Shown piece after piece: positions 32,799 to 64,000 of a stretch of 64,000 bases of DNA. The notes under the pieces were generated by a model. The model was given only the letters and a program-made list of their open reading frames with translations. It was not told the DNA's origin and made no database searches. This stretch comes from Mesorhizobium japonicum MAFF 303099 (GTDB lineage: Bacteria > Pseudomonadota > Alphaproteobacteria > Rhizobiales > Rhizobiaceae): assembly GCF_000009625.1 (NCBI RefSeq), contig NC_002678.2:372001-436000 (forward strand). Direction: 5' to 3'. How positions within the stretch are numbered: position 1 is the first letter of the stretch; each line of letters begins with the position of its first letter. The translations under genes and the position numbers were made by a program.

Positions 32799-32808
32799 TA
32801 GACGGATC

Positions 32809-32837: not shown

Positions 32838-32876
32838 TCTATTCATCTTGGAACGCCGTGGAGATAAGACCCGTCA

Positions 32877-34414: not shown

Positions 34415-34520
34415 CCCGTTTTCGGCTGTGCCAGTCGATCGCACCACGCGCGTCTTGACGAATTAAGCGCAGGGCCTAGAGCTTTCCCAGCAATTTCGTT
34501 TCCGTCTGAAGGGCAAGCTC

Positions 34521-35390: not shown

Positions 35391-35396
35391 GGGGCC

Positions 35397-36639: not shown

Positions 36640-36684
36640 CGTCATTTGGCATGGCGTCTTTACTCGCCTCCAAAGGGAGCGGCC

Positions 36685-37152: not shown

Positions 37153-37166
37153 GCGGCGCCGCCCGC

Positions 37167-37658: not shown

Positions 37659-37765
37659 TAGAGGCTCCTGAGGAATAGTTTGGCTATATTCCCCTTTATT
37701 CGGGGCTTTCACAAGAAAGAAATTCTGCCAATCGCCATGAAAGCGAGTGATTTCTTGCTGAATGT

Positions 37766-38991: not shown

Positions 38992-39025
38992 ATCGATCCT
39001 CCCTTTCCTTCCAAGCCGATACACC

Positions 39026-39649
39026 TCACCAGAAGCGAAAAATCTCCCGCACGGCGTCGCCGATCGACGCCAGCGTGCCGTGTTTTCGCTCCACGACCTC
39101 GCCGTGATGGCTGTCGCGCCAGTCCTGCGGCTGATCGAACGTACCCGCCCAGATACCGACCTTTGCGGCGCGGGCGGTTGCTTCCTCGCTTTCGAAGTCG
39201 CCAAAGGCAACCGCCCATCCCGCTTCGACCTGAGCGCGGTTGAGGTCGGTGCCGCCGGCCTTGCAGTCGCCAAGCAACCGGCCGTAGCGATCCCGCTGCC
39301 AGCCGCTGCAGGTGACGGGCCTGCCGGCGATCAGGCGCACCAGCGACTGGCGCGCAAGCGTGCCGCAGGCATAGTCGACGCCGTTCCTGCGGCAGGTCTG
39401 AGTGTATTCCGGAGCGTCGATGCCGCGCATGCGGATGCGCTCGGTGCCGAGCGTGATCGAATCGCCGTCATTGATGATGGCCGCGCCTTGCGTCTGACGC
39501 GTCTCCACCCGATCCAGGCGCGCCGCCAACAGGATCAGCAGCCCCAGAATGATGATGGTCAGCCCATAGTCCAGCACCTTGCGCCACAGGCTCCTCGGGC
39601 GCGGCGCCGCGTACCGCCGGCGCGATCTCGGCGACCAGGAACGGCTCAT
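39026..39649 (-). CDS. Membrane-anchored thermonuclease (SNase) family protein
   Basis: A 207-residue protein with a basic N-terminus, one membrane helix (YGLTIIILGLLILLAARL, about residues 28-45) and a staphylococcal-nuclease fold outside. The family motifs are visible: INDGDSITLGTERIRMRGID with the metal-binding Asp, then DRYGRLLGDC with the catalytic-type Arg. Two cysteine pairs may form disulfides. It is probably a periplasmic nuclease or DNA-binding relative. It precedes the GST gene on the same strand. Confidence 0.87.
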   Translation of the reverse strand: MSRSWSPRSRRRYAAPRPRSLWRKVLDYGLTIIILGLLILLAARLDRVETRQTQGAAIINDGDSITLGTERIRMRGIDAPEYTQTCRRNGVDYACGTLARQSLVRLIAGRPVTCSGWQRDRYGRLLGDCKAGGTDLNRAQVEAGWAVAFGDFESEEATARAAKVGIWAGTFDQPQDWRDSHHGEVVERKHGTLASIGDAVREIFRFW

Positions 39650-39725
39650 ATGGCAAACGGTTGGTTAATCATTCGAACGTAGCTTAACACCTTGAAATCG
39701 CTGCGCGCATAAATTGAAGTTTTTG

Positions 39726-46760: not shown

Positions 46761-47489
46761 TCAGTCGCCAAGTCTTCCCCCGCGGTGCCCCATCATCATC
46801 CGGGAAGCATACATCGTGGGCGAGCGCTTACCCGGCATATTGGCTTCGAGAACGATCTGCTCGACGAACCCCTGGTTCGTTTCGAATTCAATGCACTCGT
46901 CGAGCTTGTCGACAATCCAAAGCATGTATCTATCCGCCACACTCGGCTGATCATTTTTCTTGTCATAGCCGCAATCGTCGGCTGGAATTTCTTGAGGAAA
47001 GGCGGAGATCAACATGATTTTTGGTTTTGGTAGATCATAGCAATGTCCTTCATAGGAATAACCCACAATAATACCACAAGACAGCAATTTTCTTTCCCTT
47101 GCCGCCTCTTCGATTGTTAATAACGTTGATAAAGCAATTTTTCCAAAATTTCGCGTGTCGAGGGCAATTTGGTACGACATTCCTACAGGCCATGGAAATG
47201 GCGGCGTGGTAATAAGTGTTTTGAATATTTCTTCGTCAGATAATATATTTTCTCCTGCAGCTCTTAAGCCTTCTAATATTTTATTTATTTCAGCATTTGC
47301 TTTTTCATCTTTTTTGAGGTCTCCAGTAGACATGTTTGAAGAAATACTTGTGTTCTTTGTGCCGACGGCCTTTGTGCTCCCTGGGAACACGAGACCGCCA
47401 CTCCCGGGGATGCCGTAGAGCCTTACTTGGCTGGCGTTATATGCGCCACCGGGAAAAGTCAGTGTCGGTCGGTGAAAATCGTCACTCAT
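46761..47489 (-). CDS. Orphan protein, last gene of the YcaO/TfuA operon
   Basis: I do not recognise this 242-residue protein. The ATG at 47489 has a strong GGAGGAG site seven bases upstream, and it lies 29 bases after the metallopeptidase gene, so it is translated and almost surely in the same operon. The N-terminal 60 residues are rich in Gly, Ser and Thr (LTFPGGAYNASQVRLYGIPG) and look unstructured. The rest is a mixed alpha/beta domain with a few cysteines (LLSCGIIVGY, DDCGYDKK). The DNA is visibly richer in A+T than its neighbours, which suggests separate acquisition. It could be a substrate, an immunity protein or an accessory factor; nothing decides. Confidence 0.7.
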   Translation of the reverse strand: MSDDFHRPTLTFPGGAYNASQVRLYGIPGSGGLVFPGSTKAVGTKNTSISSNMSTGDLKKDEKANAEINKILEGLRAAGENILSDEEIFKTLITTPPFPWPVGMSYQIALDTRNFGKIALSTLLTIEEAARERKLLSCGIIVGYSYEGHCYDLPKPKIMLISAFPQEIPADDCGYDKKNDQPSVADRYMLWIVDKLDECIEFETNQGFVEQIVLEANMPGKRSPTMYASRMMMGHRGGRLGD

Positions 47490-47518
47490 GTTGTTACTCC
47501 TCCGTTGCAATCACCAGT

Positions 47519-48736
47519 TCATAATATTTCCCGCCACCTGAAGTTCTCCTCGAAGCTTGCCGCCACGGCCGGGCGGATGCGGTCGGACACTTCGATGATG
47601 GTGGAGGCTGCGATTGCGAATGTGAGATGGTCGGCATCGAGGCGCGTCCACGCGCGCGCGAGCGAAAGCGCGACATCGTCGCGCGCCTTGATTAGCTCGG
47701 TCTTGAAAAGGAAGGGACGGGCCCGGAACGCATCGCCCGTGAAGTTAGAGATGCGCCGCATATCGGCTTCACTAACCTGCCTGATGTCGAAGCGAAGCAG
47801 GCGCTCGTCGGCCAGGCCCTGCCGCACCAAGCCGGCATGGTAGAGATCGACCAGGGTATCGAAGATCGCTCCCGTGAATGGGCGAGACCGGTCATGAATC
47901 TCTTCGGTTACTTCCGTCATCTTGCGCGAGTTACTGGCAAGGCGGATCTGGCGGTCGCCCGTCAGTTCGCCGATGCGGTTGAGCTCGTTGAGGACAAGCA
48001 GGTTTGCCTGGCTGTGCCGTAACAATCGATCCATCCCGCTGTCGAAATGCAGGAACGAAAGCAGCGAAATAAGATCGGCGTTGGCTTCGTGGAACGGCCC
48101 GAAGTCGCCGTCCTGCAGGCCTTTCGTGGGCACTCCGAAGAGAGAAAAGAGTATTGAGTGACCCATTTCATGCGCGATCACGTCGAAGTTGAGGGCGTAC
48201 GGATGGCCGCGCCCGTCGGCTCCACGCTCGCGGCCAAGCTCCAGATAGCCATACCCCGATTGCGCATTCTCCCAGTCAATCCAGGGAATGATCTCAAGCC
48301 GCTCGTATGTTTCGGCGAAGTACCAGACAATCGGTTTGCCCAGATAGCTTTCCCAGATGTCCAGCACCCGACTCGCAGCCGCGAACGCATGCGCTGCCAG
48401 GAACTGGCGCGAGTGAAGAGAGAGGTTGTCGAAATGACCATCAAAGCCGGGTTCGGCTGGTGGGAAATACGCGCCGACGAAGGGCGGCAGGTAGGGATAC
48501 TCGTACGGCTGCTTGGCCAGCACGGGATCACGCACGTATATACGATGATCCTCCGGGCCTGGATGGATCAAACCAGGCGATGTTGAAATCCAGACCACCT
48601 CAGGTTTCTCGTAACCAGAAACGTAAGGCGCTTGTGGGTATAGCAGGAAGCGCGTTCCGGCCGACATCCCCGCCCGACCGGCGACATCAAGCGCGTTCAA
48701 CTGCGCGGCCCCTCTCATAGTCTGCGACACTAGCAC
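47519..48736 (-). CDS. Zinc metallopeptidase (gluzincin-like) in the YcaO/TfuA operon
   Basis: A 405-residue protein with a thermolysin-type zinc site: H189-E-M-G-H193 in DVIAHEMGHSILF and a third ligand candidate E217 in FHEANADLISLL. No signal peptide is evident, so it is probably cytosolic. The start is GTG at 48736; an ATG at 48718 is in frame. It lies 49 bases after the TfuA-like gene. In a peptide-modification operon such a peptidase could remove a leader peptide, which is inference. Apart from the zinc site I recognise no close family. Confidence 0.8.
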   Translation of the reverse strand: MLVSQTMRGAAQLNALDVAGRAGMSAGTRFLLYPQAPYVSGYEKPEVVWISTSPGLIHPGPEDHRIYVRDPVLAKQPYEYPYLPPFVGAYFPPAEPGFDGHFDNLSLHSRQFLAAHAFAAASRVLDIWESYLGKPIVWYFAETYERLEIIPWIDWENAQSGYGYLELGRERGADGRGHPYALNFDVIAHEMGHSILFSLFGVPTKGLQDGDFGPFHEANADLISLLSFLHFDSGMDRLLRHSQANLLVLNELNRIGELTGDRQIRLASNSRKMTEVTEEIHDRSRPFTGAIFDTLVDLYHAGLVRQGLADERLLRFDIRQVSEADMRRISNFTGDAFRARPFLFKTELIKARDDVALSLARAWTRLDADHLTFAIAASTIIEVSDRIRPAVAASFEENFRWREIL

Positions 48737-48785: not shown

Positions 48786-49511
48786 TCAGATTGCTAACCC
48801 GGCGTCCTCCAAATCTTGGACGAACCCGACCGTCATTCTGAAATTTTTCAATTCCGCCGGCACCAATGCATTTTCGTGCATAAATTGCAGAGCTGACAGT
48901 GCGTCGCGCTTCTTTTGCTGAACGAAAGCTCCTGCGAGAATTTGCCGGCAGGTTTGCAAGTCATGGTCACCGGCTTCCGGCAATGCCTCGCGGACCATTC
49001 GCGACAGCGTGCGTTCCCGAAAATTGAGGTTCCGGGCCGCACTCTCGAGCTTTCCGGACAAATCGGTGGAGATCAGGTTCCGCCTCCAAGCAACGCGGAC
49101 GGTCATTCGTAAATCAACCAAAGCGTGCGTTAGTGGCGAGAAATTCACCGCCTTCGGACCATAGAGCACTGCCACTGCGTCATCAGGCAGGACAGCAAAG
49201 CGGCGGTACCATCGGTAGATAAGGCCAACGCCGTGCATGTATGGGTAAAGCTCCGCGGCTCGCAAGGCTCCCATGCTTCCAGCACCTATCACCGGGATGC
49301 CCTGGCTGATCGCCCACAGTATCTCCTTGTGCCTCACTGCCGGCTCAGCCTGGAAAGCGCCATCTATGATGACAATTGCAGCGGGGTCATAACGTTGCAC
49401 CGCAGCTACGATCGAGCCTTGCACCGCGGGCGCCAGACAGATCACGTCGGCCACCTGCTGTGCCTCTGCATGCGATAGCGTAGGGCCGGTGAAAACGAGC
49501 CGAGGTCGCAT
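48786..49511 (-). CDS. TfuA-like protein, partner of the YcaO enzyme
   Basis: A 241-residue protein with the TfuA core: HKEIL at 61-65 and GAGSMGALRAAE at 76-87, with the strand AAIVIIDGAF before them. TfuA was named for trifolitoxin production in Rhizobium leguminosarum. YcaO-TfuA pairs are known to install thioamide bonds in peptides and in methyl-coenzyme M reductase, with TfuA thought to deliver sulfide. The ATG is four bases after the YcaO stop and has GGAG upstream, so the two are translationally linked. This strongly suggests joint action on a peptide substrate. Confidence 0.88.
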   Translation of the reverse strand: MRPRLVFTGPTLSHAEAQQVADVICLAPAVQGSIVAAVQRYDPAAIVIIDGAFQAEPAVRHKEILWAISQGIPVIGAGSMGALRAAELYPYMHGVGLIYRWYRRFAVLPDDAVAVLYGPKAVNFSPLTHALVDLRMTVRVAWRRNLISTDLSGKLESAARNLNFRERTLSRMVREALPEAGDHDLQTCRQILAGAFVQQKKRDALSALQFMHENALVPAELKNFRMTVGFVQDLEDAGLAI

Positions 49512-49515
49512 CCGC

Positions 49516-50664
49516 TCACTCCACCAAAGGGTACAATTGGGGGATAACCATCCTGACGACCGACAGTCGGTTCCAAGGGCTGGTGTTTAGACGGATCAGA
49601 TACACGGCATTGATTCCGCTTTCCTCCAATCTCGCGAGAAGGCTGCCACGCAAGGTCTGTCCGCCCGCCGCTCGATAGGCACGCTGGCGGGCGAAGCTCA
49701 CGTCCTTACGGCCGCCGGTGATCAGCTGGCGGTGCGCCTCGATAAGCTGCCAGTCGGGATATCTCGGATAAGACGCCCGGGTCATGTCATCGCGCGCACC
49801 CGAGATCGCCGCAAGCCGCGCCTGCGCCGCCTCGCGAATCGCTTGGACGGCAGCTGCCGCCGGATCGAATGCAGCGGCCGAGCCATCGGCTGGCAGATGG
49901 AGCAATGCCGTCTCGCGAGGATTGCTCTCCATCAAATGGCACCAAATCACAGGCAGGCCAACAGGCGATGGCGCAAGCCAAAGGCCGACGATCATGTCTT
50001 TTCGTGCAAGTTCACCCAATAGGGCCAAGACCCTTGCGTCATCGATGGTCGCTGGATCGATTCGCTGGTGTTGCAGAAAACCATGGGTCTGGAGAGCGCG
50101 GGCGATCGCATCACGTTCGACGCACTCCAATATGCCGTGTGTGATGGCGTCTGTTTCATCAAGCGCGGCCGCCAGTCCGGTTGTCGTTGGCGTGAAAATT
50201 CCGTCACAGGGGCTGGGCGGTACGAGATAGGCCGTGTGCACCAATTCCAGCGGAACGAAGTCGCATTTGCCCCCCAGCAGGTTCTCCGCTGAGACCCAGG
50301 CCGTATCCTTGTCGCGCCAATCAGCAAACGTAGGCTCTCGCAGCCAAGTTTCATATCGCCCGGAGGGTATCTCGAGCGACTTGGCCGAACCGTGGATGAC
50401 GTCAAAATATTCGATGCGCTCTGCGAAAAACCCTTCAGCGGATTCCAAAATTGCCGATATCGCAGCGCGGGCCAGGCTGACGCCCTTTCCCTGCGCGACC
50501 GCGTTTGAAAGCGAGAACGGCCTCGTTGCCTGCACGACCGGGATGCCAACACGGTCCAGGCCGGTAATGTCCGCAATACGGGTGATGCCCAACGCTTGTC
50601 GCATCGACATCAGATAGGTCAGCGCTTCGTCTGCCGGAGGACCAACGCGCTCATAGTGTTCCAC
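49516..50664 (-). CDS. YcaO-family cyclodehydratase/thioamidation enzyme
   Basis: A 382-residue ATP-dependent enzyme that activates backbone amides. The ATP/Mg site is recognisable: QGKGVSLARAAISAILESAE (residues 58-77, with KG and the Glu pair) and ECVERDAIARAL (180-191). The C-terminus ends VIPQLYPLVE and lacks the PxPxP motif of azoline-forming YcaOs, which fits a thioamide or other role. The GTG start overlaps the stop of the cyclase/ATPase gene by one base. The adjacent TfuA partner points to thioamide formation on a ribosomal peptide. No precursor peptide gene was identified. Confidence 0.88.
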   Translation of the reverse strand: MEHYERVGPPADEALTYLMSMRQALGITRIADITGLDRVGIPVVQATRPFSLSNAVAQGKGVSLARAAISAILESAEGFFAERIEYFDVIHGSAKSLEIPSGRYETWLREPTFADWRDKDTAWVSAENLLGGKCDFVPLELVHTAYLVPPSPCDGIFTPTTTGLAAALDETDAITHGILECVERDAIARALQTHGFLQHQRIDPATIDDARVLALLGELARKDMIVGLWLAPSPVGLPVIWCHLMESNPRETALLHLPADGSAAAFDPAAAAVQAIREAAQARLAAISGARDDMTRASYPRYPDWQLIEAHRQLITGGRKDVSFARQRAYRAAGGQTLRGSLLARLEESGINAVYLIRLNTSPWNRLSVVRMVIPQLYPLVE

Positions 50665-53600
50665 TATCGGCCGGCCCGCAGTTCCGGCTCAGGGTTCACG
50701 ATCAGCGGCTCGCCGGGCTCAACCGACTTCCTTGCCGCTTCGACACGGTCGTTGTAGCTCCGAAGCAGCCCGGGCGAGAGATTTGACGCGCTGAGCGTCT
50801 CGTAGGCCGCGATGAGGATGGGAACGGCATTTTGCTCGGCTGCAGTATTGAGGCTCTGCTCAAGGGCAGCTGCCACCCGGCCGGCCGGCGCCCTGTCAAG
50901 GACGAGAAGTTGTGCAATTCGCCGGTGTAGTTCCGCCAGCCAATATCGGCTGCCACCCGCCTCGGCCTGAGCCACCGCCGAATGAAGCAGGGCAAGCGCG
51001 TGACTGATCGCACCCGAGCGGGCGAGAAGTTCTGCCAGCATGCCGCAATAGACTGGCTCGTCCTCGGGTGTCTGCACTTGTCCATGCAGGCCGAGGCCCT
51101 CGCGCATCTTGTCCTTGCCCCGCTCAAGCTGGCCAGCGTTGCCATCGCACCAGCCCTCGAAGATTTGTGCCGAGACGACTAGCGAAGGCAGGTGATGAAG
51201 CGCGGTCAGCTGTCGCAGATCCTCAATCACGTTACGCAACGAAGCGAAGTCGCGGCGATAGCAACTCAGCATCGCGTCGTTGATACAGGCATGCGCAATG
51301 CTGCTGACATGGCCAGTCCGCTGCGCCCAGCGACGGGCCTCCGACATGGAGCGGAGAGCGCTCGTTGCACGTCCCGAAAACCACAGCGACAGTGCACGAT
51401 GCGCCAAGCCGCACACGCGCGCGTCGTGCCCCCCAAAACGCGTGGCATTCGCGTGCCCCTGGCCCACGTCATAGAGCGGCAATCCAGAATCAATCGCGGC
51501 TATGCATCCACCATGGTCTCCGCGATTGAAATCGACTGCCCATAAGCAGTGCCTAGCCTGAAGCTGAATCTCGGGGTCGTTAACCTCCTTTAGATCACTG
51601 ACGACGGCCTGCGCCCGCTCGCCATCAACGACCGAACCCGTGAACCACCAACCCCAATAGATTGGGAACCATTTGGCGCGCTCCGCTATCGGCCGACGCC
51701 GTGCGATCTTTACGCCTTCGTCATAGAGCATGCGGGCGTGCTCGGAATTTGGCCCTTCGACGGCGGTCAGTATCGGCCCGAGCGCCACCATCGCCGAGAG
51801 CCGCAGCGCATCCCGTTTGTCATGATCAGAAACTTGCCCGCAAAGCGCAATGGCATGCTCGAGCAGCTGCCTTGCCTCAGCCATGGCCGAGCGGGACGAG
51901 CTTTCCATGCCGGCATTGACGAACTCGCCGATCGCTTCGTCAAGCAGGCCTGCTCGCTCAGCATGATCGGCAAGAGCTGCCGTTGTTAGCCAGCCAACGA
52001 GGCTGCGGTTGCGGCTAGCCACCGCATAAAGACGCCGATGCAGAGTCTGACGCCGTTTCCGCAGCGTTGCATTATAGATCGTCTCTTGGATAAGCGCATG
52101 CCGAAATGCGTACACTGTTGCTGCTGCGTGCCTGGCGCGTACGAAGCCTGCCTCAACCAGGGCATCGAGCGCCGCAGAGATTGTGCCTGGGTCAAATTCC
52201 GGCAAGAGCGCCGACAGCAAGTCCAGGCTGAATCTGTTGCCGGCGACGGCGGCCGCACGCGCCACCTCGCGGGCGCGGCCGAGAGGCTCCAGCCGGGCAT
52301 CTAACACTGTTTCCAACACGGCCGCGCGGCCGAGCGAAACGCCTTGTGGCAGTTGCTCTGTACCGCTAGCGGCATTCTCCGCCATCCATTGGCAAACCTC
52401 CTCGATGAACAGGGGTACACCGCCGGTGACGCGCTCGACCAACTCTTTCAGCTCAGGCGCAGGCGCTGGCTTGCCTTGAGGCCACATCGTTGCGATTGCC
52501 CGCAACGTGTCAGCATGCTCAAGGGGAGCGAGCAGGACATGCTTGCTTTTTTCGTCTAGCCAGACGCCAGATTCCGGCCTCGTCGTTGCGATCAAGAGCA
52601 CGGGGCAACTAGGAACCAGCTTTGCAAGTTCACCCAGCAGTTGCTTCGACGTCAGGTCGATCCAGTGAATATCTTCAACGATCAGGATCACCGCGCCACT
52701 GGCGCACGTTGCTTGTAACGCATGGCGTGCAGCCCATTCGGCCTTCTCCCGGATCATTTCCGGATCCATCTCATGGAAACTGGACCTCACGCCTTCCACA
52801 CCGAGCAGGAAGGAAAAGATGTCGACGACTTCGGGGTCGTGAACGCCATGTGCGGCGAACACCTCGGCCACAAGCGCAGGGGTGAGTGCACGCTCGCCGT
52901 CGTCGAAATTGCCCAGCATCGCCTGCCGCAGTGGATGCAGCGTCGAACGCGAGTCGCCTGGCATACATTGGAAGAGGAGCAACCTGTTGCGTTGGAAGCG
53001 GGTTCGCCGGCGCACCTCGTGCAGGATGCGCGACTTGCCAATGCCGGCTTCGCCCTCGATCACGATGACCTGGCCACGTCCCGAAACGGCTTCATTCCAA
53101 CATTCACGTATCAACTTGGCCTCATCCGTGCGGTCGATCAAGGGGCTGGTGAGGCGTCCGAACGCGAAGAAACGGTCTACACCCCGCTTGTGGCTCAGCG
53201 CCTGCCAGACCTGCTCGGGTTGCGCGAAGCCTTTGATGACGTGAGAACCGCAGAAGCTAAATACGTGTGAACGCCGTGTCAGATTGCGTGTCTCGTTGCA
53301 CACGACGACAGTATCTGGCCGGGCGATTGCCTGCAGCCTAGTTGCCAGCGCAAATGCAGGGCCGGTTACCGTGTCCTGCGCTACACCGGTGTCGCCCTTC
53401 AGGATTAGCGTCATCGAGGTCGCCACACCGACCCTCACATGTAGGTCGCTCCTCCCTTTCTCCGCGGCAAGGAGCTTGCACGCCCTGACGATCTCAAGTC
53501 CGGCGCTGATCGTCAGCGACGCCGCATCCTTCGCACCCAGATCGACTGGGAACACAGCGACGCCGCCGTCGCCGACCTCGACCCTCACGGTTCCGGAGCA

Positions 53601-53831
53601 CGATACGATCGCTTCCTTGGCGGCCATTTGAAACGCCAAGATAAGTTCCTCAAAATCTTCGATGCCGAGCAGGCCGAGCAACTCGGTGGAGGCTACGAGA
53701 TCGTAACAAAGGGCGGTTAGAACGCGCCGTTCATGACGGGCTCCGACGGCGTCGTCCATCAACCCCCTGCCGATCGGAAGGTGCGAGCCAGTCCCCGCGC
53801 TCGGAACATCAACTCGGCTCTTATGCGACAT
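50664..53831 (-). CDS. Cyclase-homology/AAA ATPase regulator with TPR-like tail
   Basis: A 1055-residue cytosolic protein. The N-terminus is a class III cyclase homology domain with metal-type aspartates D44 (CYDLVAST) and D88 (EVGDGGVAVF). The ring-binding asparagine expected in GxAxNLAAR is alanine (A161 in GPAFALATRLQ), while R165 is kept, so cyclase activity is doubtful. An AAA/STAND ATPase follows, with P-loop GEAGIGKS (260-267) and Walker B VILIVEDIHWID. The remainder is helical and TPR-like. The ATG at 53831 follows GAGG. As first gene of the operon it probably senses a signal and controls the YcaO/TfuA genes or their product; no DNA-binding domain is visible. Confidence 0.85.
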   Translation of the reverse strand: MSHKSRVDVPSAGTGSHLPIGRGLMDDAVGARHERRVLTALCYDLVASTELLGLLGIEDFEELILAFQMAAKEAIVSCSGTVRVEVGDGGVAVFPVDLGAKDAASLTISAGLEIVRACKLLAAEKGRSDLHVRVGVATSMTLILKGDTGVAQDTVTGPAFALATRLQAIARPDTVVVCNETRNLTRRSHVFSFCGSHVIKGFAQPEQVWQALSHKRGVDRFFAFGRLTSPLIDRTDEAKLIRECWNEAVSGRGQVIVIEGEAGIGKSRILHEVRRRTRFQRNRLLLFQCMPGDSRSTLHPLRQAMLGNFDDGERALTPALVAEVFAAHGVHDPEVVDIFSFLLGVEGVRSSFHEMDPEMIREKAEWAARHALQATCASGAVILIVEDIHWIDLTSKQLLGELAKLVPSCPVLLIATTRPESGVWLDEKSKHVLLAPLEHADTLRAIATMWPQGKPAPAPELKELVERVTGGVPLFIEEVCQWMAENAASGTEQLPQGVSLGRAAVLETVLDARLEPLGRAREVARAAAVAGNRFSLDLLSALLPEFDPGTISAALDALVEAGFVRARHAAATVYAFRHALIQETIYNATLRKRRQTLHRRLYAVASRNRSLVGWLTTAALADHAERAGLLDEAIGEFVNAGMESSSRSAMAEARQLLEHAIALCGQVSDHDKRDALRLSAMVALGPILTAVEGPNSEHARMLYDEGVKIARRRPIAERAKWFPIYWGWWFTGSVVDGERAQAVVSDLKEVNDPEIQLQARHCLWAVDFNRGDHGGCIAAIDSGLPLYDVGQGHANATRFGGHDARVCGLAHRALSLWFSGRATSALRSMSEARRWAQRTGHVSSIAHACINDAMLSCYRRDFASLRNVIEDLRQLTALHHLPSLVVSAQIFEGWCDGNAGQLERGKDKMREGLGLHGQVQTPEDEPVYCGMLAELLARSGAISHALALLHSAVAQAEAGGSRYWLAELHRRIAQLLVLDRAPAGRVAAALEQSLNTAAEQNAVPILIAAYETLSASNLSPGLLRSYNDRVEAARKSVEPGEPLIVNPEPELRAGR

Positions 53832-53850
53832 GTCACCCTCGCTGACAGGG

Positions 53851-53868
53851 CATACTATCAAAAGTATG
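53851..53868. promoter_or_regulatory. Inverted repeat upstream of the YcaO/TfuA operon
   Basis: CATACT and AGTATG form perfect 6-base arms around a 6-base spacer, 20 bases upstream of the first gene of the operon. The size suits an operator; the sequence does not match a terminator. Confidence 0.45.
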
Positions 53869-53880
53869 ACAGAGCACAAA

Positions 53881-55399: not shown

Positions 55400-56314
55400 T
55401 CAGACGATGCGCAACAGCTCGCGCAGGCGGACCGGTAATCTGGGCGAAGCCTGTAGCTCGGCGCAGCTCGCCTCCCATTGCCGCAGATATTCACCAATGG
55501 CCAGGCCGCTGCGGCCGGGCCAGCGGTTGAGTGCCCCCAGCGCCTCGATGCAGTCCGGCGCGCGGTCGTATTCGGCGAGGATGGTCAGCGACATAGCCTG
55601 GGCGAACGGATTAAGGGCGGGCATTTCGATCTCGCCGCGATGATCGGTGAACCACGCCGCGGCGTCGCGGGTGAGCCCCTGGCTATCGGCGAGAGCCGTA
55701 TAGCGGTCGATGATATCCTGGCGGTATCGGGCGATGGCATCGCCGAAGGCGTTGTCGCCGGCGAAGGGCGGGGCCTCCTTCCAGCTTCTTGCCAGACGCC
55801 CGAGCCCGCGCAGTGAGTGGGCCTCCACCATGGCCTCCTCGAGCCATTGGCATGGCGGCGCCGGCCTGGCGTCCGGTTGCCAGCTGTTGCAGAGCACATG
55901 GCCGAGCTCGTGGCCGAACTGGTAGGCGAGCTTCGACCAGTCCCGCTCGCCGATGTCCACGATGATCCAGGCCATGCTGGTGCCGTCCGGATGCAGCCAG
56001 ATGGCCGGCGTGCCGGAAGTGTGTTCGTCGACACGCAGCCGCGTCGGCTGGCGGTCGGAGACAAGGCGGACGCCGTCGAGGCAGGCATGCCGCATTCGCT
56101 CGACGACCTGATCAGCCGCACCCTCAAGCATGCGGCCCCAGTCGCCGGCAAGCTCGATGGGCGCGGTCAAGAGGGTTGGCTGTGGGCGGGCCGAGGGAGT
56201 TTTAGGGCGCATGGCTGCGTAGGCTTTCCGAGAGCGGCTCAGCAGCGCAGCTGGTGCCAAGCTGGTAGCCAACGAGACGGCCGCAAGTATACTGAACTTT
56301 CGCCTGTTCGTCAG
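55400..56314 (-). CDS. Tat-exported zinc metallopeptidase-like protein
   Basis: An exported protein of about 304 residues. The N-terminus TNRRKFSILAAVSLATSLAP is a twin-arginine signal. The zinc motif H135-E-L-G-H139 (YQFGHELGHVLCNSW) is followed by a glutamate-rich helix WLEEAMVEAHSL that can supply the third ligand. The start is unclear: the best ribosome site (AAAGGAG) points to a CTG at 56314, while the frame stays open to 56674 over sequence without homology. A non-standard start or an N-terminal frame error is possible. It shares a zinc-peptidase theme with the YcaO operon, but no direct similarity was seen. Confidence 0.68.
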   Translation of the reverse strand: MTNRRKFSILAAVSLATSLAPAALLSRSRKAYAAMRPKTPSARPQPTLLTAPIELAGDWGRMLEGAADQVVERMRHACLDGVRLVSDRQPTRLRVDEHTSGTPAIWLHPDGTSMAWIIVDIGERDWSKLAYQFGHELGHVLCNSWQPDARPAPPCQWLEEAMVEAHSLRGLGRLARSWKEAPPFAGDNAFGDAIARYRQDIIDRYTALADSQGLTRDAAAWFTDHRGEIEMPALNPFAQAMSLTILAEYDRAPDCIEALGALNRWPGRSGLAIGEYLRQWEASCAELQASPRLPVRLRELLRIV

Positions 56315-56478
56315 CTTATGCTCCTTTGTCCAAACATACCCATCGAGGTGTGGTGCGGAGCGCGCGATCGCTAGACTTACCGCAACCCCACACCCATTGA
56401 ACAACGCGTAGGGTGGTATGTAATTTGCTAAGTTGCCTTTGCAGCGACGACGAGCATTTGAATCGGTAATGGCACTGG

Positions 56479-57090
56479 TCATGCACCGATTTGCGCCATG
56501 TCCCACAGACACATCGCCTTCGATGCGTAGTGTTCCTCCGGCATAATCAGGAGTGGCAGCGGCAACGAGAATGGCGGTTGCTGTAAGTTGAGAAACCCGA
56601 ATCCGCCCGTTTCCCGCGCAATGTCCTGTGCCGAGGTCGAGTGGCTTGAGGTGAACAGCCAGCGCGCGCCGCATTTTTTGAAGTTGCGAAGCGCGCGCCA
56701 GATGTCGGGTTCGGTCAGATGCTGCAGACAGTCGCGTGAAAAAATGAGGTCAACGTTCGGCAGTGGTTCAACAGCCAGATCGAGCACGTGAAATTCGCGA
56801 TCCGCATATCGCACACGGTTCGTTTCGATGACTTCTGGAACAATGTCGCAACCGATGTAGTGCATTTTGCCCAAGTCGACGAAGCGCATCCAGTTGAAGT
56901 CGCCGCAGGGCGCATCAAGCATGGACTTCACATCCAGTGCGCGCAAAAGCATCGGCAATACGGTTCGCACGCGATGCGTCGTCGCGTACGCTGAACCGAG
57001 CCCGGAGCGCGATTCCGCGGAGCCCCACTCGTTGCTTTGGTAAATGCGCGCGAAAGCTTCGCGGGAATCATCAGGCGTGCCTTGCGTCAT
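56479..57090 (-). CDS. Class I SAM-dependent methyltransferase
   Basis: A 203-residue methyltransferase. Motif I reads MLDAPCGDFNWM, the acidic motif II DREFHVLDLAV, and motif IV LIFSRDCLQHLTEPDI. The subgroup resembles methyltransferases of glycan clusters, but the acceptor cannot be named. The ATG at 57090 has GAGGTG upstream at good spacing; a TTG at 57168 is the longest start. It lies next to the FkbM gene and the large glycosyltransferase, so a role in modifying a surface glycan is likely. Confidence 0.82.
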   Translation of the reverse strand: MTQGTPDDSREAFARIYQSNEWGSAESRSGLGSAYATTHRVRTVLPMLLRALDVKSMLDAPCGDFNWMRFVDLGKMHYIGCDIVPEVIETNRVRYADREFHVLDLAVEPLPNVDLIFSRDCLQHLTEPDIWRALRNFKKCGARWLFTSSHSTSAQDIARETGGFGFLNLQQPPFSLPLPLLIMPEEHYASKAMCLWDMAQIGA

Positions 57091-57383
57091 CGAATGCACC
57101 TCATCGACGCCGGTGACGTGCTCGATCCCGATTCCAGCCGCATTGATTGAAAACGGAAAAGTCGTCAAGCACGCTTACTGGAAGGGAATAGGGCACTATG
57201 CGACAAATTTCAACGAATTCGATGTCGGCGCGCGTTGTTGCGGGCCAGCGTCATCAGCGTGGAACTCGTTTTCCAACCGCCTGACCAGGCCAATCCCGCC
57301 GGCGTCCATCTCGACCCTTTTTGCAAAATGGCCAAACTCGCTTACCATCATCCCAAAATCAGGGATCAAGGGAGGGGTCTTTC

Positions 57384-58484
57384 GTGGGTGCGAGTTTCAA
57401 CCAGGCCGGGTTCGTCAAGCGAATATTTACTTCGCATGGAACTACCCTCTTCGTAGACACTTCGTCTGGCGAGCTTCGGCATGGGCTTATGGAGTATAGC
57501 CCAAACAATGTGTTGCTGACTAAAGATGGCAAATCGGCTCATATTCGTTTCGTTGATGGACCGACTGATATTGTCTATTTCACTGAGTACTCTGCAATCT
57601 CGGGTTCTAAGAGAATAGATGGGATCGATGCTCTCAATTTAATGCCCGATAACACGCTGACGATCGTGGATCTGCCCAGAAACAAATTTGGGCTTGTTCA
57701 AAATGGGACCTTTCTGTCCGCACGATCTGATGGTCGGATTACTCTATCCGCTCCGCTATGCAGAGGTTGGGAAAATTTCCATTTCCGCAAAGATGCGTCT
57801 GAGGTAAGCGGAGTTATTGTTAGTCACCGCATTGATGGTAAGATTATCACCTTCTTCATACAGGACCGAACCGACATAATTCAGTCTATCTTATTTGGAG
57901 GGGACTTTTATGAGCGCGACACGCTCGATCTGATTCGCGATCGCTCTACACCAGGCAAAGTGTTTGTCGATATTGGCGCGAATATAGGTAATCACTCTAT
58001 CTTTATGTCAAAATTCTGCAGTCCATCTGAGGTGATCGTTTTTGAACCCAATCCGAAAGCGATTGAAATACTTAAGTTAAACGTCCTATTGAACGCTTGC
58101 GCAAACATAAACACGAGCTATCTCGGCCTCGCCCTTGGTTCAAAAGCGGCCCAAATGCGTGTCTTTTCGCCGGATCCCAATAATATGGGTCGAGCCCAAA
58201 TGCTCGACGACGATGATGGAAATGTCAAATGCGTCGCTGGAGACCTCCTCTTGCAACAGAAACCGGTTGGCCTCTTGAAGATTGATGTGGAAGGTTCAGA
58301 GTTCGAGGTGCTCAGAGGAATGCAGGGGACGATCGAAACTTGGCGCCCGAACATACTTATCGAAGTGTGGCCGCAAAGCCAGCAAGATCTTTTCTCGTGG
58401 TGCGACTCTTTCCGCTACGTTGTCCAAGAAACTTTTCCCACGGACAATAACTATTTCTTGGCGCCCATTGAGAGGCAGTCTTGA
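57384..58484 (+). CDS. FkbM family methyltransferase with extra N-terminal domain
   Basis: A 366-residue protein. The C-terminal half is an FkbM-type O-methyltransferase: motif I VFVDIGANIGNHSIF (DIGAN at 196-200), then VIVFEPNPKAIEILKLNV and GLLKIDVEGSEFEVLRGM, which is the family hallmark. The first 150 residues are beta-rich and of unknown function (RFVDGPTDIVYF, then NTLTIVDLPRNKFGLVQNGT). The GTG at 57384 has GGGAGGGG six bases upstream, so I prefer it to longer starts. The DNA is visibly A+T-rich against the flanking genes. It probably methylates a sugar made by the neighbouring glycosyltransferase. Confidence 0.85.
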   Translation: MGASFNQAGFVKRIFTSHGTTLFVDTSSGELRHGLMEYSPNNVLLTKDGKSAHIRFVDGPTDIVYFTEYSAISGSKRIDGIDALNLMPDNTLTIVDLPRNKFGLVQNGTFLSARSDGRITLSAPLCRGWENFHFRKDASEVSGVIVSHRIDGKIITFFIQDRTDIIQSILFGGDFYERDTLDLIRDRSTPGKVFVDIGANIGNHSIFMSKFCSPSEVIVFEPNPKAIEILKLNVLLNACANINTSYLGLALGSKAAQMRVFSPDPNNMGRAQMLDDDDGNVKCVAGDLLLQQKPVGLLKIDVEGSEFEVLRGMQGTIETWRPNILIEVWPQSQQDLFSWCDSFRYVVQETFPTDNNYFLAPIERQS

Positions 58485-58529
58485 GGCGAAGCAAGAAGTG
58501 TCGGGCTGAACGTGCGATCGACGCCAAGT

Positions 58530-61325
58530 TCACTGCCGATTCGCGACTTCCCGATCTGATGCCTGCTCGTCGTCGTGAATGACCAGTGGCGGCATGCAGA
58601 CGAACGCATGCATCGAGTCATACACCGCGGACATTGCGCAGTCGATGCCCTCATCCTCGAGGACCACTCCAGTCCCAGGAAACGGAATAAGCCGCTTTCG
58701 AAGAGGTAGGCATTTTTCAAGAAGTACTTGAGCTCCCCTTGGAGTTACTGAATAAGCCATTGCACCAAAGGAATGGACTAGTCGGATAAGAGATCGCGGA
58801 TAGGTTTCAGATTGAAATTGGGCCGGAATCTGTTTGTGTTGTCGGTTGTAGAACTCCAGCTTGGCTTTGGAGAAATCGAAGTTCAACCACAGGAATAGAG
58901 GGTCGAAATTGAATCCCCACTTTACCATATCCCAGTTCTCTGGAGCCATGGACAGAATGCGAGTCGACTCCTCAAGAAAGTTGAACGACGAGTAGACGTC
59001 GTCCTCGAAAATGGTAATTGGCCGCTTCTCGGATACCGCTAACTTCCACAAGTTGATGTGCGATAGAGCACATCCCAATGCGCCCGGCAGATACCCGCAA
59101 TCCTCGGCAATCACTCCATCGTCCACCAAGGCTTGCAAGGTCGACCTATCGAGGGATGCTCCGTCGACGGCCGATACCCGAATTGTATTGGCGGCTAGAT
59201 GAGGATTCCTATCTTGATATTTGCGCCAGCGCTCGACGCTGCTGTCCAAGTTTATTAGGTGAATTTGCGGCGGCTCGACATGTCGATCTGGCATCGGTAC
59301 GGCGCCCGGAGGCGTGGCGGCAGTGAATACCGGCGTGTCGCCGGCACCGTGCAACAGCGCTCGGGCGCGCTCGATCCCGTCACTCACATAATATTGGCCA
59401 TCGCCGAAGGTGATGTAGCCATAGACTTGTCGGTTATCCATATACTGGACGATGCCGGCCTTGCGGGCGCTGTCGGCAAAGATCACGTACTCGTAGCGCG
59501 ATGTCGCGTCCTCGTATGTCAGTTCGGGCAGTACGTCGGCGCGGACAAGATAGGTGCAGTGCACAAGCGGCATCTCGATAATGCCGCGCACGTGGCGGTT
59601 GAGCACCCACCCATATTGATCGCACTGCATATAGTAGCCGTTGGCGTCGATTTCGGCGTGGTAGTTCGAATAGTATTGCCCGGGAGAGATGGAGCGAAGC
59701 AGGGGAGCGACGATCGGCACGTCGAGCGCGACAAGCTCGCGTAGCGTGGCCGGTCGCACGAAATTATCGACGTCGGCAACGAAATAGAAATCGCAGCTGT
59801 GTTCGAGAGTTTTCCGCAAACTTATGTTGCGGATTCGGCCAAGCACCCTGAAGCGCGTCTCGTTCCATTCGTGTTCGCCAAACTGCTCGACTCTATCGGC
59901 CACGTTGGAGGCATCGAATTCAACCGCGGCATAGAGGTGACCAACGCGCTCCACCCATTCGCGCAGTATGTGCTCGGTCCTGTCGGTGTTGTTGTTTGTC
60001 CTGATGTACAGGACGATCGACGCCTTGGGGTAGTCGAGCGCCTCGATGCACTCGAGGTACAGCGGCAGTGCCGGCTCTTTCTGCTTTGCGAGGATTGTCA
60101 CCAGGATGCGCGGCGTGCCCTCGATGCGCGACCGCAACGACCGCTGCCGGACAAGCCTGTGCTGGTCGATCAAGCTCTCGGTCCCGAACGCCCCAAGTTT
60201 CGGCGGCTCATTGACCGGAAGCTTGCCGGTGGCGAAGCGAGCGTTGGCCACCACACGCTTCGCCATTTCCGCAGGCAATTTGTCGGAGGCGAGCAATTTT
60301 AGACAAGCGTCGAGCGATTCCCGGTAGGCGCCTGCCCAGTAGGCATTGACAGCAAACTCGTCGAGCAGTCCGTAATCGTAAACCCAGGGCTGAATGAAAA
60401 GTCCGGCGGGTTGAACAAGGTCGAGCCCTCGACGCGCAAATTCCGTTCCTTCCGCATTCCGGCCCTGGTTGCGGCAATAGAGGCTCGCAGCGTGTAGAGC
60501 CTCCGCGCGGGCGGGGACGACCTGCGCCGCGCGCTCAAAGGCGGCAACGACCTCGTCGAATGGCCGCCCCAATGCTGCCATGAGGTTGCCCGCCTCAAGC
60601 AGGCTGACATAGACCTCCTCGTCCCAAAAACCTAGATCGGCGCGCTTCAGATAGTTCGCGAGTGATTTTTCACGCTCGCCGGAATCCCTGTAGCTCTGCG
60701 CCAGATAGAAGGTGTATCGCGAAACAAGAAAGGGGTCGGTCTCCGTTGCAAGCGCATTTTCAAGAACGGCCGAGTCGTCCTGGTACTTTCGTGGGTTTTG
60801 ACTGCGTGCTCCGCCACGCCCCGTCGCCACGCGAAAACCCTTGGCGGTCTCCCGCGTGAGATGGCCAGGAGGGGCCTCGAGATATTCGTGCAGGACGCCC
60901 TTGAAGGCGAACGGCAGACGGTTGCGGCAGATCTGCGGGCGATAAAACGAAATGCCACCATGTAACACCTCGACGTCGTATAAATCGTGTTCCATCTGCG
61001 ACTTGAACCTGATCGGATCGAAGTCGGCGTCCCGGATCAGAACATCGTCCGCGTCGATGATCATTGCATAGTCGACAGTCTCGACTTTACGCAATCGTTC
61101 AAGGGCGAAGGTCCGGTTGTACGCGAAGTCCCGCCATGGCTCGTCAATGACAGCGCCTTGGACACCGTTATCGGCGAGAAAGCCGCGTATCAGGTCTTGC
61201 GTGCCGTCCTCGGAACCGGTGTCGACGATGAGCACGTAGTCGACAAGGGGGAGCACGCTGGCGAGGCATTGCAGGATGACCTTCGTCTCGTTCTTGACAA
61301 TCATGCACAGGCCGATGGTGCTCAT
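58530..61325 (-). CDS. Multidomain glycosyltransferase: GT2 + TPR + collagen-galactosyltransferase-like pair
   Basis: A 931-residue cytosolic protein with four parts. Residues 1-170 are a GT2 domain (MIVKNE, VDTGSEDGTQD, DADD at 91-94). Residues 195-360 are TPR-like helices. Residues 404-645 form a second transferase domain (PRILVTILAKQKEPALPLYL, FVADVDNF with DVD at 518-520, IVAPLLRS, YYSNYHAEIDANGYY). Residues 687-920 are a GT25 domain (IHLINLDSSVERW, GALGCALSHINLWKLA, FEDDVY at 773-778). From memory, the order and motifs of the last two domains match animal procollagen galactosyltransferase. The ATG overlaps the stop of the preceding truncated GT2 gene. A collagen-like protein is encoded about 1.5 kb away. 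The acceptor and sugar are inferred. Confidence 0.85.
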   Translation of the reverse strand: MSTIGLCMIVKNETKVILQCLASVLPLVDYVLIVDTGSEDGTQDLIRGFLADNGVQGAVIDEPWRDFAYNRTFALERLRKVETVDYAMIIDADDVLIRDADFDPIRFKSQMEHDLYDVEVLHGGISFYRPQICRNRLPFAFKGVLHEYLEAPPGHLTRETAKGFRVATGRGGARSQNPRKYQDDSAVLENALATETDPFLVSRYTFYLAQSYRDSGEREKSLANYLKRADLGFWDEEVYVSLLEAGNLMAALGRPFDEVVAAFERAAQVVPARAEALHAASLYCRNQGRNAEGTEFARRGLDLVQPAGLFIQPWVYDYGLLDEFAVNAYWAGAYRESLDACLKLLASDKLPAEMAKRVVANARFATGKLPVNEPPKLGAFGTESLIDQHRLVRQRSLRSRIEGTPRILVTILAKQKEPALPLYLECIEALDYPKASIVLYIRTNNNTDRTEHILREWVERVGHLYAAVEFDASNVADRVEQFGEHEWNETRFRVLGRIRNISLRKTLEHSCDFYFVADVDNFVRPATLRELVALDVPIVAPLLRSISPGQYYSNYHAEIDANGYYMQCDQYGWVLNRHVRGIIEMPLVHCTYLVRADVLPELTYEDATSRYEYVIFADSARKAGIVQYMDNRQVYGYITFGDGQYYVSDGIERARALLHGAGDTPVFTAATPPGAVPMPDRHVEPPQIHLINLDSSVERWRKYQDRNPHLAANTIRVSAVDGASLDRSTLQALVDDGVIAEDCGYLPGALGCALSHINLWKLAVSEKRPITIFEDDVYSSFNFLEESTRILSMAPENWDMVKWGFNFDPLFLWLNFDFSKAKLEFYNRQHKQIPAQFQSETYPRSLIRLVHSFGAMAYSVTPRGAQVLLEKCLPLRKRLIPFPGTGVVLEDEGIDCAMSAVYDSMHAFVCMPPLVIHDDEQASDREVANRQ

Positions 61326-61714
61326 GCGATTCCTTCAGCTGAGCAGCGGTCGTTGCGCGCCTGCTCGAAATTGTGGAATGGGAATTCGTGCAGCTCGCCC
61401 GGCAGGCTGCGGGCAGCGAAGAACGATTTGATGAAATCCTGGGTCCCGTCGGTCGAGCCGGTATCGCCGATGACACAGCAGTCGATGTGGTCGACAACCG
61501 CCCCGAGACAGCGTTGAAGGTTCGCCATCTCGTTCTTGACGATCATGTTGAGGCAGAGCCGCTTGCCGTGTGTCACCTTCGAATTGTCAGCGATCGAGGG
61601 AAGTGGCGATCGGACGGATGATTCAGTCCTGCTTTGTCTCGCCTTCGGGGCGGACTGCGTCGATGCGGATGCCAAGTCCCGGTCGCCCATGCCTTCAGCC
61701 CGCATATCGTTCAT
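61322..61714 (-). CDS. Truncated GT2 glycosyltransferase domain
   Basis: A 130-residue open frame holding only the first part of a GT2 fold: RLCLNMIVKNEMANLQRCLG, then CVIGDTGSTDGTQDFIKSF, ending soon after FEQARNDRC. The DxD metal site and acceptor half are missing. The sequence parallels the N-terminus of the next gene, and its stop overlaps that gene's start (ATGA). It is most likely the remnant of a tandem copy after recombination. It may still be translated and serve to couple translation of the large gene. Confidence 0.6.
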   Translation of the reverse strand: MNDMRAEGMGDRDLASASTQSAPKARQSRTESSVRSPLPSIADNSKVTHGKRLCLNMIVKNEMANLQRCLGAVVDHIDCCVIGDTGSTDGTQDFIKSFFAARSLPGELHEFPFHNFEQARNDRCSAEGIA

Positions 61715-62502
61715 CCTGCCAGCTCGACCGCCAGTATAGTCTCTATTCCCGAATATCGGATCATTCGTTCTATCGGTTCCTACGGGATCGTCGTGAGGAA
61801 ACCGTGCTTAACCTGATTCATCATGGTTACCCCAAGCCATTTCTCCGGCGGGCTGCAAGGACCATGGGAGGCGATTGCAGGCATGGTGCGCTCCAACCTG
61901 TTCAAGCGGAGAAACCTCGCCGCAATTTGCGCACTGTCTGCTTTCCCGCCTTTTATCAATTTTCAACTCATAAATTACAAATTCCTAAAATTCTAACCAC
62001 TAATATACGATGTCAAGTGGCGGCAAGGCTCACGGCTGCTTACGCCGAATTTGTGAGGAGTGGGTCAGAGGGTGCTGGGTAGCAAAGCAAATCGCGTATG
62101 AGGCGCGACCGGGGTGCGCTCGTTGTAGGCCGCGTTCGTCCCTCTGCAGAAGGACAGACGGCTTCAATTCCCTCGCGCCGAGACATTGGTGTCATCATTC
62201 GTTTGAAGGACGACGGACGTCTCATTTCGGAGCTTTCTAACGGTTGACGCCCAGCCTTCGGCGTACCTGGAGGGATTGCGTTGTGGGTGGGTTGATATCG
62301 CCTGCCGACCGGCGAAGCTGTGGTGCGGCACTTGGCTACTGCATCCGGCGACCGACTGCAGGGTCGCCACCGCTTCCGCGATCTCCTCCACGGAGAACCA
62401 ACGCGGCACGGTTCGATCCCACATGGCGCGACGCCAAGCGTTGGAAATTGGGGGGGCACAAATAACGGTGCGGCACGACCGCCGCTGACCAGGGAGGGAA
62501 TT
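61715..62502. other. Intergenic stretch with A+T-rich core
   Basis: About 790 bases between divergent units. The part around 61960-62020 is strikingly A+T-rich and is a plausible promoter zone for one or both sides, but no clear -35/-10 pair was found. Open frames in 62040-62500 on both strands have no recognisable product. A small remnant of another gene cannot be ruled out. Confidence 0.4.
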
Positions 62503-62811
62503 ATGAGCTACGCACCAGCGTTTGCGGCGATCGAAGTCACCGTTATGGGCGCTTTGCCGGTCGGAAGTACGACCGGAAATGTAAATTACTTTATCGTGGA
62601 TACGGCCAAAGATGCGATAGTCGGCCAGGTCGTCCTTCCCAACGCCGTCAGGCAAAGTCAGTCCGTCGTTCTCACCGTCAAGGTTCCAAGCAACGTAAGC
62701 TCGCTGGCGATCGGGACGTTTGACGACGCTGGGAATTTCCAGGCCTCCACCTTTCTCAGCGTAGACAGCCCCGTCGCTGCTCATCCCGGCGGCGCCGTCG
62801 GGCCATCCTGA
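62503..62811 (+). CDS. Small beta-sandwich-like protein, single module
   Basis: A 102-residue protein without a named family. The strong GGGAGGG site before the ATG supports translation. It reads as one beta-rich module: [40 protein letters not shown], then [18 protein letters not shown], ending Gly/Pro-rich. The same pattern recurs inside the next gene ([33 protein letters not shown]). No signal peptide is visible. It is probably co-expressed with, and perhaps assembles with, the DUF4347 collagen-like protein. Confidence 0.72.
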
Positions 62812-62911
62812 AGATAACCGCCCAGTCTCCATGCTTTTTTCCCGTGGCCACGCCGGGCGAGCCTGCGTGCCGCTAAACCTTAAGTTGAATTCGAGCCCAC
62901 AGGAGCCGGTG

Positions 62912-64000
62912 ATGGCCCGCGCCTCGGAAATCCTCTTTTTAGATCCTTCAATCCCTGATCTCGAAACCGCTCTGAGAAACGTGCGGCCGGAGGTGGACGC
63001 TATCGTGCTCGACAAACGCCAGCCCGCGGCGCGGCAAATGGCGGAGGCTCTAGAAGGGCGCAACGGGTTGGACGCGGTGCACATCCTAGCTCACGGCGCG
63101 CCGGGACGTCTCGGCTTTGGCTCGGGCGAGTGGTCGAGCGACACTCTGGTGCGCGACGCTGCGAACCTAGCCGCCATCGGCAGGGCCTTGGCCGATTGTG
63201 GCGGCCTGCGGCTGTGGAGCTGCGAGACCGGTTACGGCGCGGCGGGCGAAGCGTTTGTAAAGGCTCTCTCCGAGGCGACCGGCGCTGGCGTATCGGCTGC
63301 CGTAGGACTGGTTGGCGCCGAAGCGTTGGGCGGGCGATGGGACCTGCCGATATCCCCTATGTCCCGTGTTGCGCCGCCGCTAACCAACACGGGAACGGCA
63401 AGTTACGCAGGTGTTCTGAGCCTTGAAGTGACACTTACTGGGTCACTCGATACTGCTGGTTCTATCAGCCAGAAGGCAGTTCAGTATTATATCACGAATT
63501 CGTCTAACGTAATTGTCGCTAGCTTTACGTTACCATCAAAATCATCTGCTCAATTCTCTTCCGTCGCTATGATTGTCGACGTTCCAGTAAGCGGGACTTA
63601 TACGATAACAGCGCTTGTTCAAGATGATACGGACGATAACAATCAATGGTCAGTTGTTTCTGCTGGCACATTCAATCTGAGCAACAATTCGGTTACTTCT
63701 GGCCCGTCCAGCAATTCCGACGGTGTCTTTACTCTTACAGGGGTTTCTTCCACCAGCAACAGTGGTTCGACAGGCCCGACGGGTGCGACCGGCGCCACGG
63801 GTGCGACCGGCGCCACGGGCCGTACGGGTTCGACCGGGGCTACAGGCTCGACCGGCGCCACGGGTGCGACCGGCGCTACGGGCCATACGGGTTCGACGGG
63901 TGCCACAGGCTCGACCGGCGCCACAGGCTCGACCGGGGCGACTGGCTCGACAGGTGCGACTGGCTCGACTGGGGCAACAGGCGCCACAGGTTCGACTGGG
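62912..64000 (+). CDS. DUF4347 protein with collagen-like Gly-Xaa-Thr repeats (partial)
   Basis: The reading frame is open to the window edge (363 residues seen). Residues 1-150 are a DUF4347 domain, with [17 protein letters not shown] around H61 and [13 protein letters not shown] around C104, then LGGRWDL. DUF4347 usually heads very large secreted or surface proteins. Residues 170-260 are a beta module like the preceding small protein. From G285 a collagen-like repeat starts: 26 Gly-Xaa-Thr triplets before the edge, with Xaa mostly Ala or Ser, and no Lys. AGGAG lies six bases before the ATG. The many Thr residues are potential O-glycosylation sites. The protein is probably exported, perhaps by a type I route. 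Confidence 0.85.
63764..64000 (+). repeat. Tandem repeat coding for collagen-like triplets
   Basis: A 9-base period codes Gly-Xaa-Thr, often doubled to an 18-base unit alternating Ala and Ser at Xaa (ggtgcgaccggctcgacc type). It runs past the window edge. Such arrays change length by slippage and recombination. Confidence 0.9.

Follow-up and report, generated by a model that had tools for sequence, protein, structure and literature searches.

How is a bacterial collagen triple helix stabilised without hydroxyproline? The question is raised by a locus of Mesorhizobium japonicum MAFF 303099 at the right-hand end of the window, by which is meant the whole stretch of 64,000 nucleotides analysed (C1:372001-436000, within a genome of 7.6 Mb), where a gene for a 931-residue modular glycosyltransferase lies close to a gene for a giant collagen-like protein. 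The repeat is nearly proline-free, with Thr at 97% of its Y positions, and it is linked to glycosyltransferases in every matched locus of the genus; this linkage makes glycosylated Thr a directly testable answer. The locus is probably dedicated to collagen glycosylation and export: Thr at position Y would receive O-linked sugars in the cytoplasm, and the chain would then leave by the type I route. Its anatomy, linkage, motif conservation and exchange of genes are observed, and the linkage extends across Mesorhizobium and, in varying completeness, to other Hyphomicrobiales.

Collagen-like proteins and organization of the locus

An earlier note on this DNA had described 26 Gly-Xaa-Thr triplets beside the 931-residue glycosyltransferase, an FkbM methyltransferase and a second methyltransferase, and all of its open reading frames (ORFs) were found in the window as described, at the same coordinates. 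A metallopeptidase ORF, a 143-residue ORF and a 130-residue fragment are further members of the locus. The features are as follows; the last five lie wholly or in part beyond the window and are given in window coordinates.

55400..56674, minus strand: predicted exported Zn-metallopeptidase ORF, the conserved left flank of the cassette
56479..57168, minus strand: class-I S-adenosylmethionine methyltransferase, cassette gene (PF13649, E 2.4e-7)
57321..58484, plus strand: cassette gene for an FkbM-family methyltransferase that carries an additional N-terminal domain (PF05050, E 4.1e-16; TIGR01444, E 6.9e-34)
58530..61325, minus strand: 931-residue modular glycosyltransferase (GT2, TPR, COLGALT GalT-N-like, GT25/GalT-C-like)
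61322..61714, minus strand: 130-residue GT2 fragment, putative relic (partial PF00535)
62380..62811, plus strand: 143-residue ORF, the conserved right flank
62831..64000, plus strand: open frame of collagen-like protein 1, gene start 62912 (within the window, DUF4347 and 26 Gly-X-Thr triplets)
69274 (C1:441274): end of collagen-like gene 1
69759-79196 (C1:441759-451196): collagen-like gene 2
79386 (start) and 81698 (end): ATP-binding cassette (ABC) exporter gene (PF00664/PF00005)
81740-83146: HlyD gene (PF13437)
83176-84909: Sel1-repeat gene

Within the cassette, the G+C fraction goes down to 0.54.

The fragment of collagen-like protein 1 in the window matches PF01391 (E 2.2e-13). Upon completion of the gene beyond the window, the 26 triplets extend to 563, and a second gene with 742 was found. 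Chance origin is excluded, because the triplets are unbroken in both genes. Protein 1 consists of DUF4347, a beta-rich stretch, the repeat and a C-terminal tail of about 147 residues, and protein 2 of DUF4347, a longer middle part, the repeat and a related tail. Both terminate in LKDLLKPHE, and the conserved tail mostly ends in (L/M)KD(L/I)LKP plus two residues. The 143-residue ORF is related to the beta-rich stretch that follows DUF4347, and its homologues (about 53-68%) lie just upstream of the collagen genes in most genus loci read. Thr takes position Y in 558 of the 563 triplets of protein 1 and 710 of the 742 of protein 2, while position X is mostly Ala, Ser or Asp, with Pro in 4 and 38 triplets, respectively. 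At a rise of 0.29 nm per residue, the value in the accessible text of PMC8968730, the helices would be about 490 nm (protein 1) and 645 nm (protein 2) long; the same text gives Thr as the predominant Y residue of bacterial collagens, at 31.6% over all bacteria.

In a survey of runs of at least 12 triplets passing composition filters, Thr exceeded 90% at Y in 34 of 36 measured genus loci, the exceptions being G094 and G092; the latter was rejected as a member of the locus, its collagen-like gene being unrelated. Five measured places outside the genus gave 93-100%, with repeats less uniform than in the genus. These counts bear on the proposal that the cassette targets non-collagen parts (DUF4347, the beta-rich stretch or the C-terminal tail), the 143-residue ORF product or flagellin in place of the Gly-X-Thr repeat, which we consider improbable. 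The 143-residue ORF and the DUF4347 region are likewise conserved beside the cassette, GmaR modifies flagellin, and only about half of the Y positions are Thr in two outside places, but the prevalence of Y-Thr in the genus is as expected for a Thr acceptor, and DUF4347 was detected in only one of the eight outside places with collagen.

The collagen repeats of G013, G137, G024, G044 and G046 are spread over two or more overlapping frames, which suggests frameshifts or assembly errors in the repeat.

The 931-residue glycosyltransferase

The enzyme is divided into GT2 (residues ~1-190), TPR (~190-375), GalT-N-like (~402-660) and GT25/GalT-C-like (~685-918) domains, and its highest-identity named relatives are from Mesorhizobium. 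The likeness to GT25 collagen galactosyltransferases proved stronger than first claimed: in phmmer comparison with human COLGALT1 (9evj chain; E 9.6e-39), residues 404-918 align with 24-531, covering both COLGALT1 domains and not GT25 alone. COLGALT1 is also the top fold match of the enzyme model, with 22-27% identity in structure alignments, and the relative placement of the domains is not established by the model (root-mean-square deviation 14 A against COLGALT1; pTM 0.42). At the other end, superposition of residues 1-284 on SunS gives 3.5 A and residues 4-154 match GmaR in sequence, while the score with the SunS equivalog model TIGR04195 (26.9 bits) did not reach its cut-off of 350. SunS and GmaR act on peptide or protein, and the N-terminal module is an equally good candidate initiator as the COLGALT-like half.

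The acidic metal motifs DADD 91-94, DxDN 518-521 and EDD 774-776 are kept in all 30 aligned sequences. For COLGALT1, the first DXD (166-168), the second DXD (461-463) and RMQV (471-474) are each reported as required for activity in the available part of PMC3244457, and EDD 435-437 is described as catalytic, within the active COLGALT domain, in that of PMC13382579. The first DXD corresponds to DVDN 518-521 and the catalytic EDD to 774-776, but the second DXD is not matched, being NWD 797-799 in this enzyme and DWD in 24 of the 30 sequences, and RMQV is absent at the aligned place. As judged by alignment, the COLGALT motifs are thus only partly kept.

True COLGALT chemistry would here mean transfer of galactose to hydroxylysine within the Gly-Pro-Lys block that protein 2 carries, a reading to be weighed together with the distribution of Lys. 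The earlier note had argued from a repeat without Lys that the acceptor would be Thr or Ser; the observation holds for protein 1 (0 of 563 triplets), but fails for protein 2, which contains 25 Gly-Pro-Lys among its 742 triplets, all within the last 15% of the repeat. Lys blocks at or near the C-terminal repeat end occur also in G019, G103, G007, G015, G091 and G094. The 25 triplets and the retained EDD agree with hydroxylysine as acceptor, but protein 1 and the majority of the repeats surveyed at neighbouring loci have no Lys, this enzyme retains neither RMQV nor the first Asp of DXD 461-463, and the two 2-oxoglutarate-oxygenase matches (PF13640) in the genome, where lysyl hydroxylase was not searched for, are more than 1 Mb away. 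Such chemistry is therefore very improbable.

Linkage of the COLGALT-like enzyme and collagen

The COLGALT-like region was matched in 28 of 146 genus genomes (E 1e-30): 12 with one open frame over both halves, two interrupted (G134 and G017), one with the N-half only (G116), five with the GT25 half at 61-71% and eight at about 40%. The co-occurrence proposed in the earlier note is borne out, since each of the 28 places read falls within the collagen locus. Triplets are visible in a neighbouring gene at 25 of them, and three are cut by contig ends within locus markers ahead of collagen, namely in the DUF4347 gene (G047) or the 143-residue ORF (G081 and G068); G068 has its collagen and exporter genes on a separate contig. 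The linkage claimed for a glycosylation island serving the collagen-like protein is thus upheld, although its acceptor argument from absence of Lys fails for protein 2. With at most 40 collagen candidates scored per genome, at least five PF01391 matches were found in 26 of the 28 positive genomes versus 25 of the 118 others (Fisher p 1.4e-12); the contrast is weaker for any collagen match (27/28 versus 72/118, p 8e-5). As a control, 38 GT25 matches in 12 genomes were located, 11 in the collagen locus and 27 at least 250 kb away by coordinates, these distances being to the collagen locus, with collagen genes possible elsewhere in the genomes. Three of the 27 are also in long frames (801, 709 and 1048 residues), so that GT25 fusion alone is no mark of the collagen type.

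In an order-wide sample of 397 genomes, at least 12 match, nine of them outside the genus; this is a lower bound, as three candidates were scored in genomes with more than three. Among 11 places outside the genus, a collagen gene is found at eight within the stretch read, and at G332 the contig ends after exporter genes and a metallopeptidase homologue. G281, G175 and G450 each have the full complement: metallopeptidase homologue, ABC, HlyD, Sel1 and collagen. At the class level, a COLGALT-N search at E 1e-20 yielded only the window's own genome out of 385, and the family is apparently centred on Hyphomicrobiales, as far as this thin sample goes. The GT2-TPR module alone is not diagnostic, because L028 (Methylobacterium; GT2-TPR only, 44%) has no collagen run in its 21 kb. 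L021-L026 were not counted besides G020, G019, G043, G098, G134 and G081, and L027 (M. loti CJ3sym), in which the glycosyltransferase is cut by contig data next to a collagen frame, is in no count.

The same places speak to the alternative that the glycosyltransferase works on lipopolysaccharide (LPS), capsule or another surface polysaccharide and adjoins collagen because surface genes cluster. The GT25 family is annotated as one of LPS biosynthesis, and further GT25 genes are present elsewhere in the same genomes. This alternative is unlikely in view of the location of all 28 genus places and eight of the 11 outside places in or beside a collagen locus, the lack of any polymerase or flippase among eight cassette proteins scanned with Pfam, and the resemblance of the N-terminal module to SunS and GmaR.

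Exchange of the glycosylation cassette

Between the conserved flanks, the metallopeptidase ORF on the left and the 143-residue ORF, collagens and exporter on the right, the block differs among loci. The type-A cassette carries the COLGALT-like enzyme and varying methyltransferases, and types B and C a GT2-TPR-Gly_transf_sug enzyme of about 1270 residues and further GT2-TPR proteins, often with GT25, either fused to a GT1-like region or stand-alone. FkbM homologues are found in both kinds (G075; G048, G102 and G103). Collagen matches without a COLGALT-like match occur in 72 genus genomes, of which 13, picked mostly for many collagen matches, were read. The same locus is present in 12: ten carry the ~1270-residue enzyme, in full or shortened form, G094 carries a different GT2-TPR enzyme, and G015 is cut before the cassette.

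Over DNA that runs from 61341 to at least 61575, identity to the 5' end of the ~1270-residue enzyme gene of type-B/C loci is 78-96%, reaching 95.6% over 61351-61575 with the type-B gene of G006. Judged from this identity, the 130-residue ORF is the N-terminus of a type-B glycosyltransferase and a relic of cassette exchange, which implies that a type-B cassette gave way to one of the COLGALT type, with a scar remaining at 61322-61714. Since the relic DNA is common to G017 and G019, and part of it is in G013 and G134, the exchange is older than the strain of the window. On a tree of 24 ABC proteins, cassette type needs seven changes, at least five of them forced by well-supported branches; for instance, type-B G007 and G024 group with type-A G000, G017 and G019, all with at least 97.8% ABC identity to G000. 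Within type A, GalT-N stays 85-99% identical, and two alleles of the GT25 half are found, one at 82-91% identity (G020 and G134), the other at 59-68% (the remaining loci).

Methyltransferases, predicted flanking peptidase and exporter

The class-I methyltransferase, a candidate glycan-capping enzyme, is 93-94% identical in six type-A loci (G020, G019, G013, G134, G017 and G043) and was not found in the other loci read; the FkbM protein is 50-59% identical in four other loci, and the methyltransferase set differs from locus to locus. A structure model of the FkbM protein (five-row alignment, pLDDT 43) was not used. The FkbM protein (57321-58484) has an N-terminal domain in common with a GT25 protein of type-B cassettes and another methyltransferase (L082:5754-8066 and L064:15104-17170), with the motif, by eye, HGTxxxVDxxxGELRHG ... 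DGRxTLSxxxCxxxExF; it is perhaps a docking module.

The metallopeptidase homologues are 65-88% identical in genus loci and 48-65% in five loci outside the genus. Of 41 locus homologues, 40 have HExxH and, after it, EExxVE; the window copy matched no family of Pfam or NCBIfam at E 0.1. A loose twin-arginine-type signal pattern fits 15 of the 41, including the window copy, for which the true start is probably near 56314, at a twin-arginine-like signal; with this start, the overlap with the methyltransferase ORF would disappear. By analogy with animal procollagen proteinases, it is a candidate processing peptidase.

ABC and HlyD genes adjoin the collagen-like genes, as for type I secretion substrates. 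The ABC protein matches TIGR01846 (E 4e-154) at 514 bits, below the cut-off of 726. Behind the collagen locus of G102 (L084 and L085, stitched 25696-39652) is a frame of 3913 residues that begins with DUF4347 fragments and is followed by an ABC-like gene; it may encode a second giant type I substrate.

Proposed pathway and its significance

In the favoured pathway, the 931-residue enzyme would glycosylate unfolded collagen chains in the cytoplasm: the SunS/GmaR-like GT2-TPR module would place the first sugar on Thr (or Ser) at Y, the GalT-N/GT25 half would add or extend sugars, and the neighbouring methyltransferases may cap the glycan. The chains would leave through the type I exporter and trimerise outside, where the C-terminal Gly-Pro-Lys-Gly-Asp-Thr block of protein 2 may nucleate the helix. 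Unmodified Gly-Ala-Thr repeats are poor helix formers, and glycosylated Thr may take the place of hydroxyproline as stabiliser of the nearly proline-free helix. Glycosylated rods about 0.5 and 0.65 micrometres long, at the surface or within the matrix, would result, and a cassette swap would bring a different glycan, as in O-antigen or capsule loci.

Several points weigh against this pathway. Substrates of type I exporters are usually unglycosylated. Of the 13 collagen loci that were read and lack a COLGALT-like match, 11 have another cassette, so that the system does not depend on the COLGALT-like module. Thr at Y falls to 69% in G094, 54% in G278 and 49% in G213. Nine of the 11 outside places have the GalT-N half only, preceded by GT2-TPR and without GT25, and the stretches read at two of them (the second copy of G278, and G255) contain no collagen. 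The GalT-N domain of human COLGALT1 is described as catalytically dormant in the part of PMC13382579 available.

Glycosylated collagen-like proteins are already known as a kind; what is new is a locus that combines a COLGALT homologue, an exchangeable glycosylation cassette and type I export of giant Gly-X-Thr collagens, and of such a locus no report was found among the matches listed in open-licence literature. The human COLGALT family gains a bacterial counterpart that is encoded beside its presumed collagen-like substrate, the exchange points to a fibre glycan exchanged by recombination among soil and root bacteria, and the locus is a possible route to recombinant glycosylated collagen. Tentatively, and with more doubt than confidence, one may go further and suppose a complete collagen-maturation pathway in Hyphomicrobiales, with COLGALT-related enzymes, methyl capping, type I export, a processing metallopeptidase and exchangeable serotype-like glycans. 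If so, the bacterial association of the COLGALT family with collagen would have arisen earlier than that in animals or independently of it, and these bacteria would make collagen rods of half a micrometre or more with exchangeable glycans.

Other observations in the window

A TfuA-like gene lies directly beside a YcaO gene at 48786-50664 (minus strand), a pair known from peptide thioamide formation. The adjoining ORFs 46761-47510 and 47519-48736 have no Pfam match at E 0.01, and the region is a possible small peptide-modification cluster. At 50664-53879 (minus strand), a 1071-residue protein is encoded, with an AAA ATPase domain preceded by a weak cyclase match. An imperfect tandem repeat with an 18/36-base unit is located at 16501-16596.

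Comparison with known systems

The enzyme is like COLGALT1/GLT25D1 in that both glycosyltransferase domains are homologous, the first DXD and catalytic EDD are kept and the gene stands beside that of a collagen-like substrate. It differs in its fusion to GT2-TPR within 931 residues, in NWD for the second DXD, in the absence of RMQV, and in its bacterial setting with no secretory pathway to the endoplasmic reticulum and with Thr, not hydroxylysine, as the likely acceptor. BclA systems have glycosyltransferase genes nearby, of other families than in the Mesorhizobium locus. The latter is Gram-negative, with type I export instead of an exosporium, an exchangeable cassette and a much longer, nearly proline-free repeat. 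A Thr-rich Gly-X-Y repeat is common to it and the spore proteins BclA of Bacillus and Clostridioides difficile, glycosylated there according to the accessible text of PMC8968730. SunS/ThuS and GmaR share the GT2 fold with TPR-like helices, but their equivalent is here one module of three in the 931-residue enzyme. Capsule and O-antigen loci have a variable glycosyltransferase block swapped between conserved flanks, like the collagen cassette, but the product of the conserved neighbour is here a protein fibre, not a lipid-linked polysaccharide.

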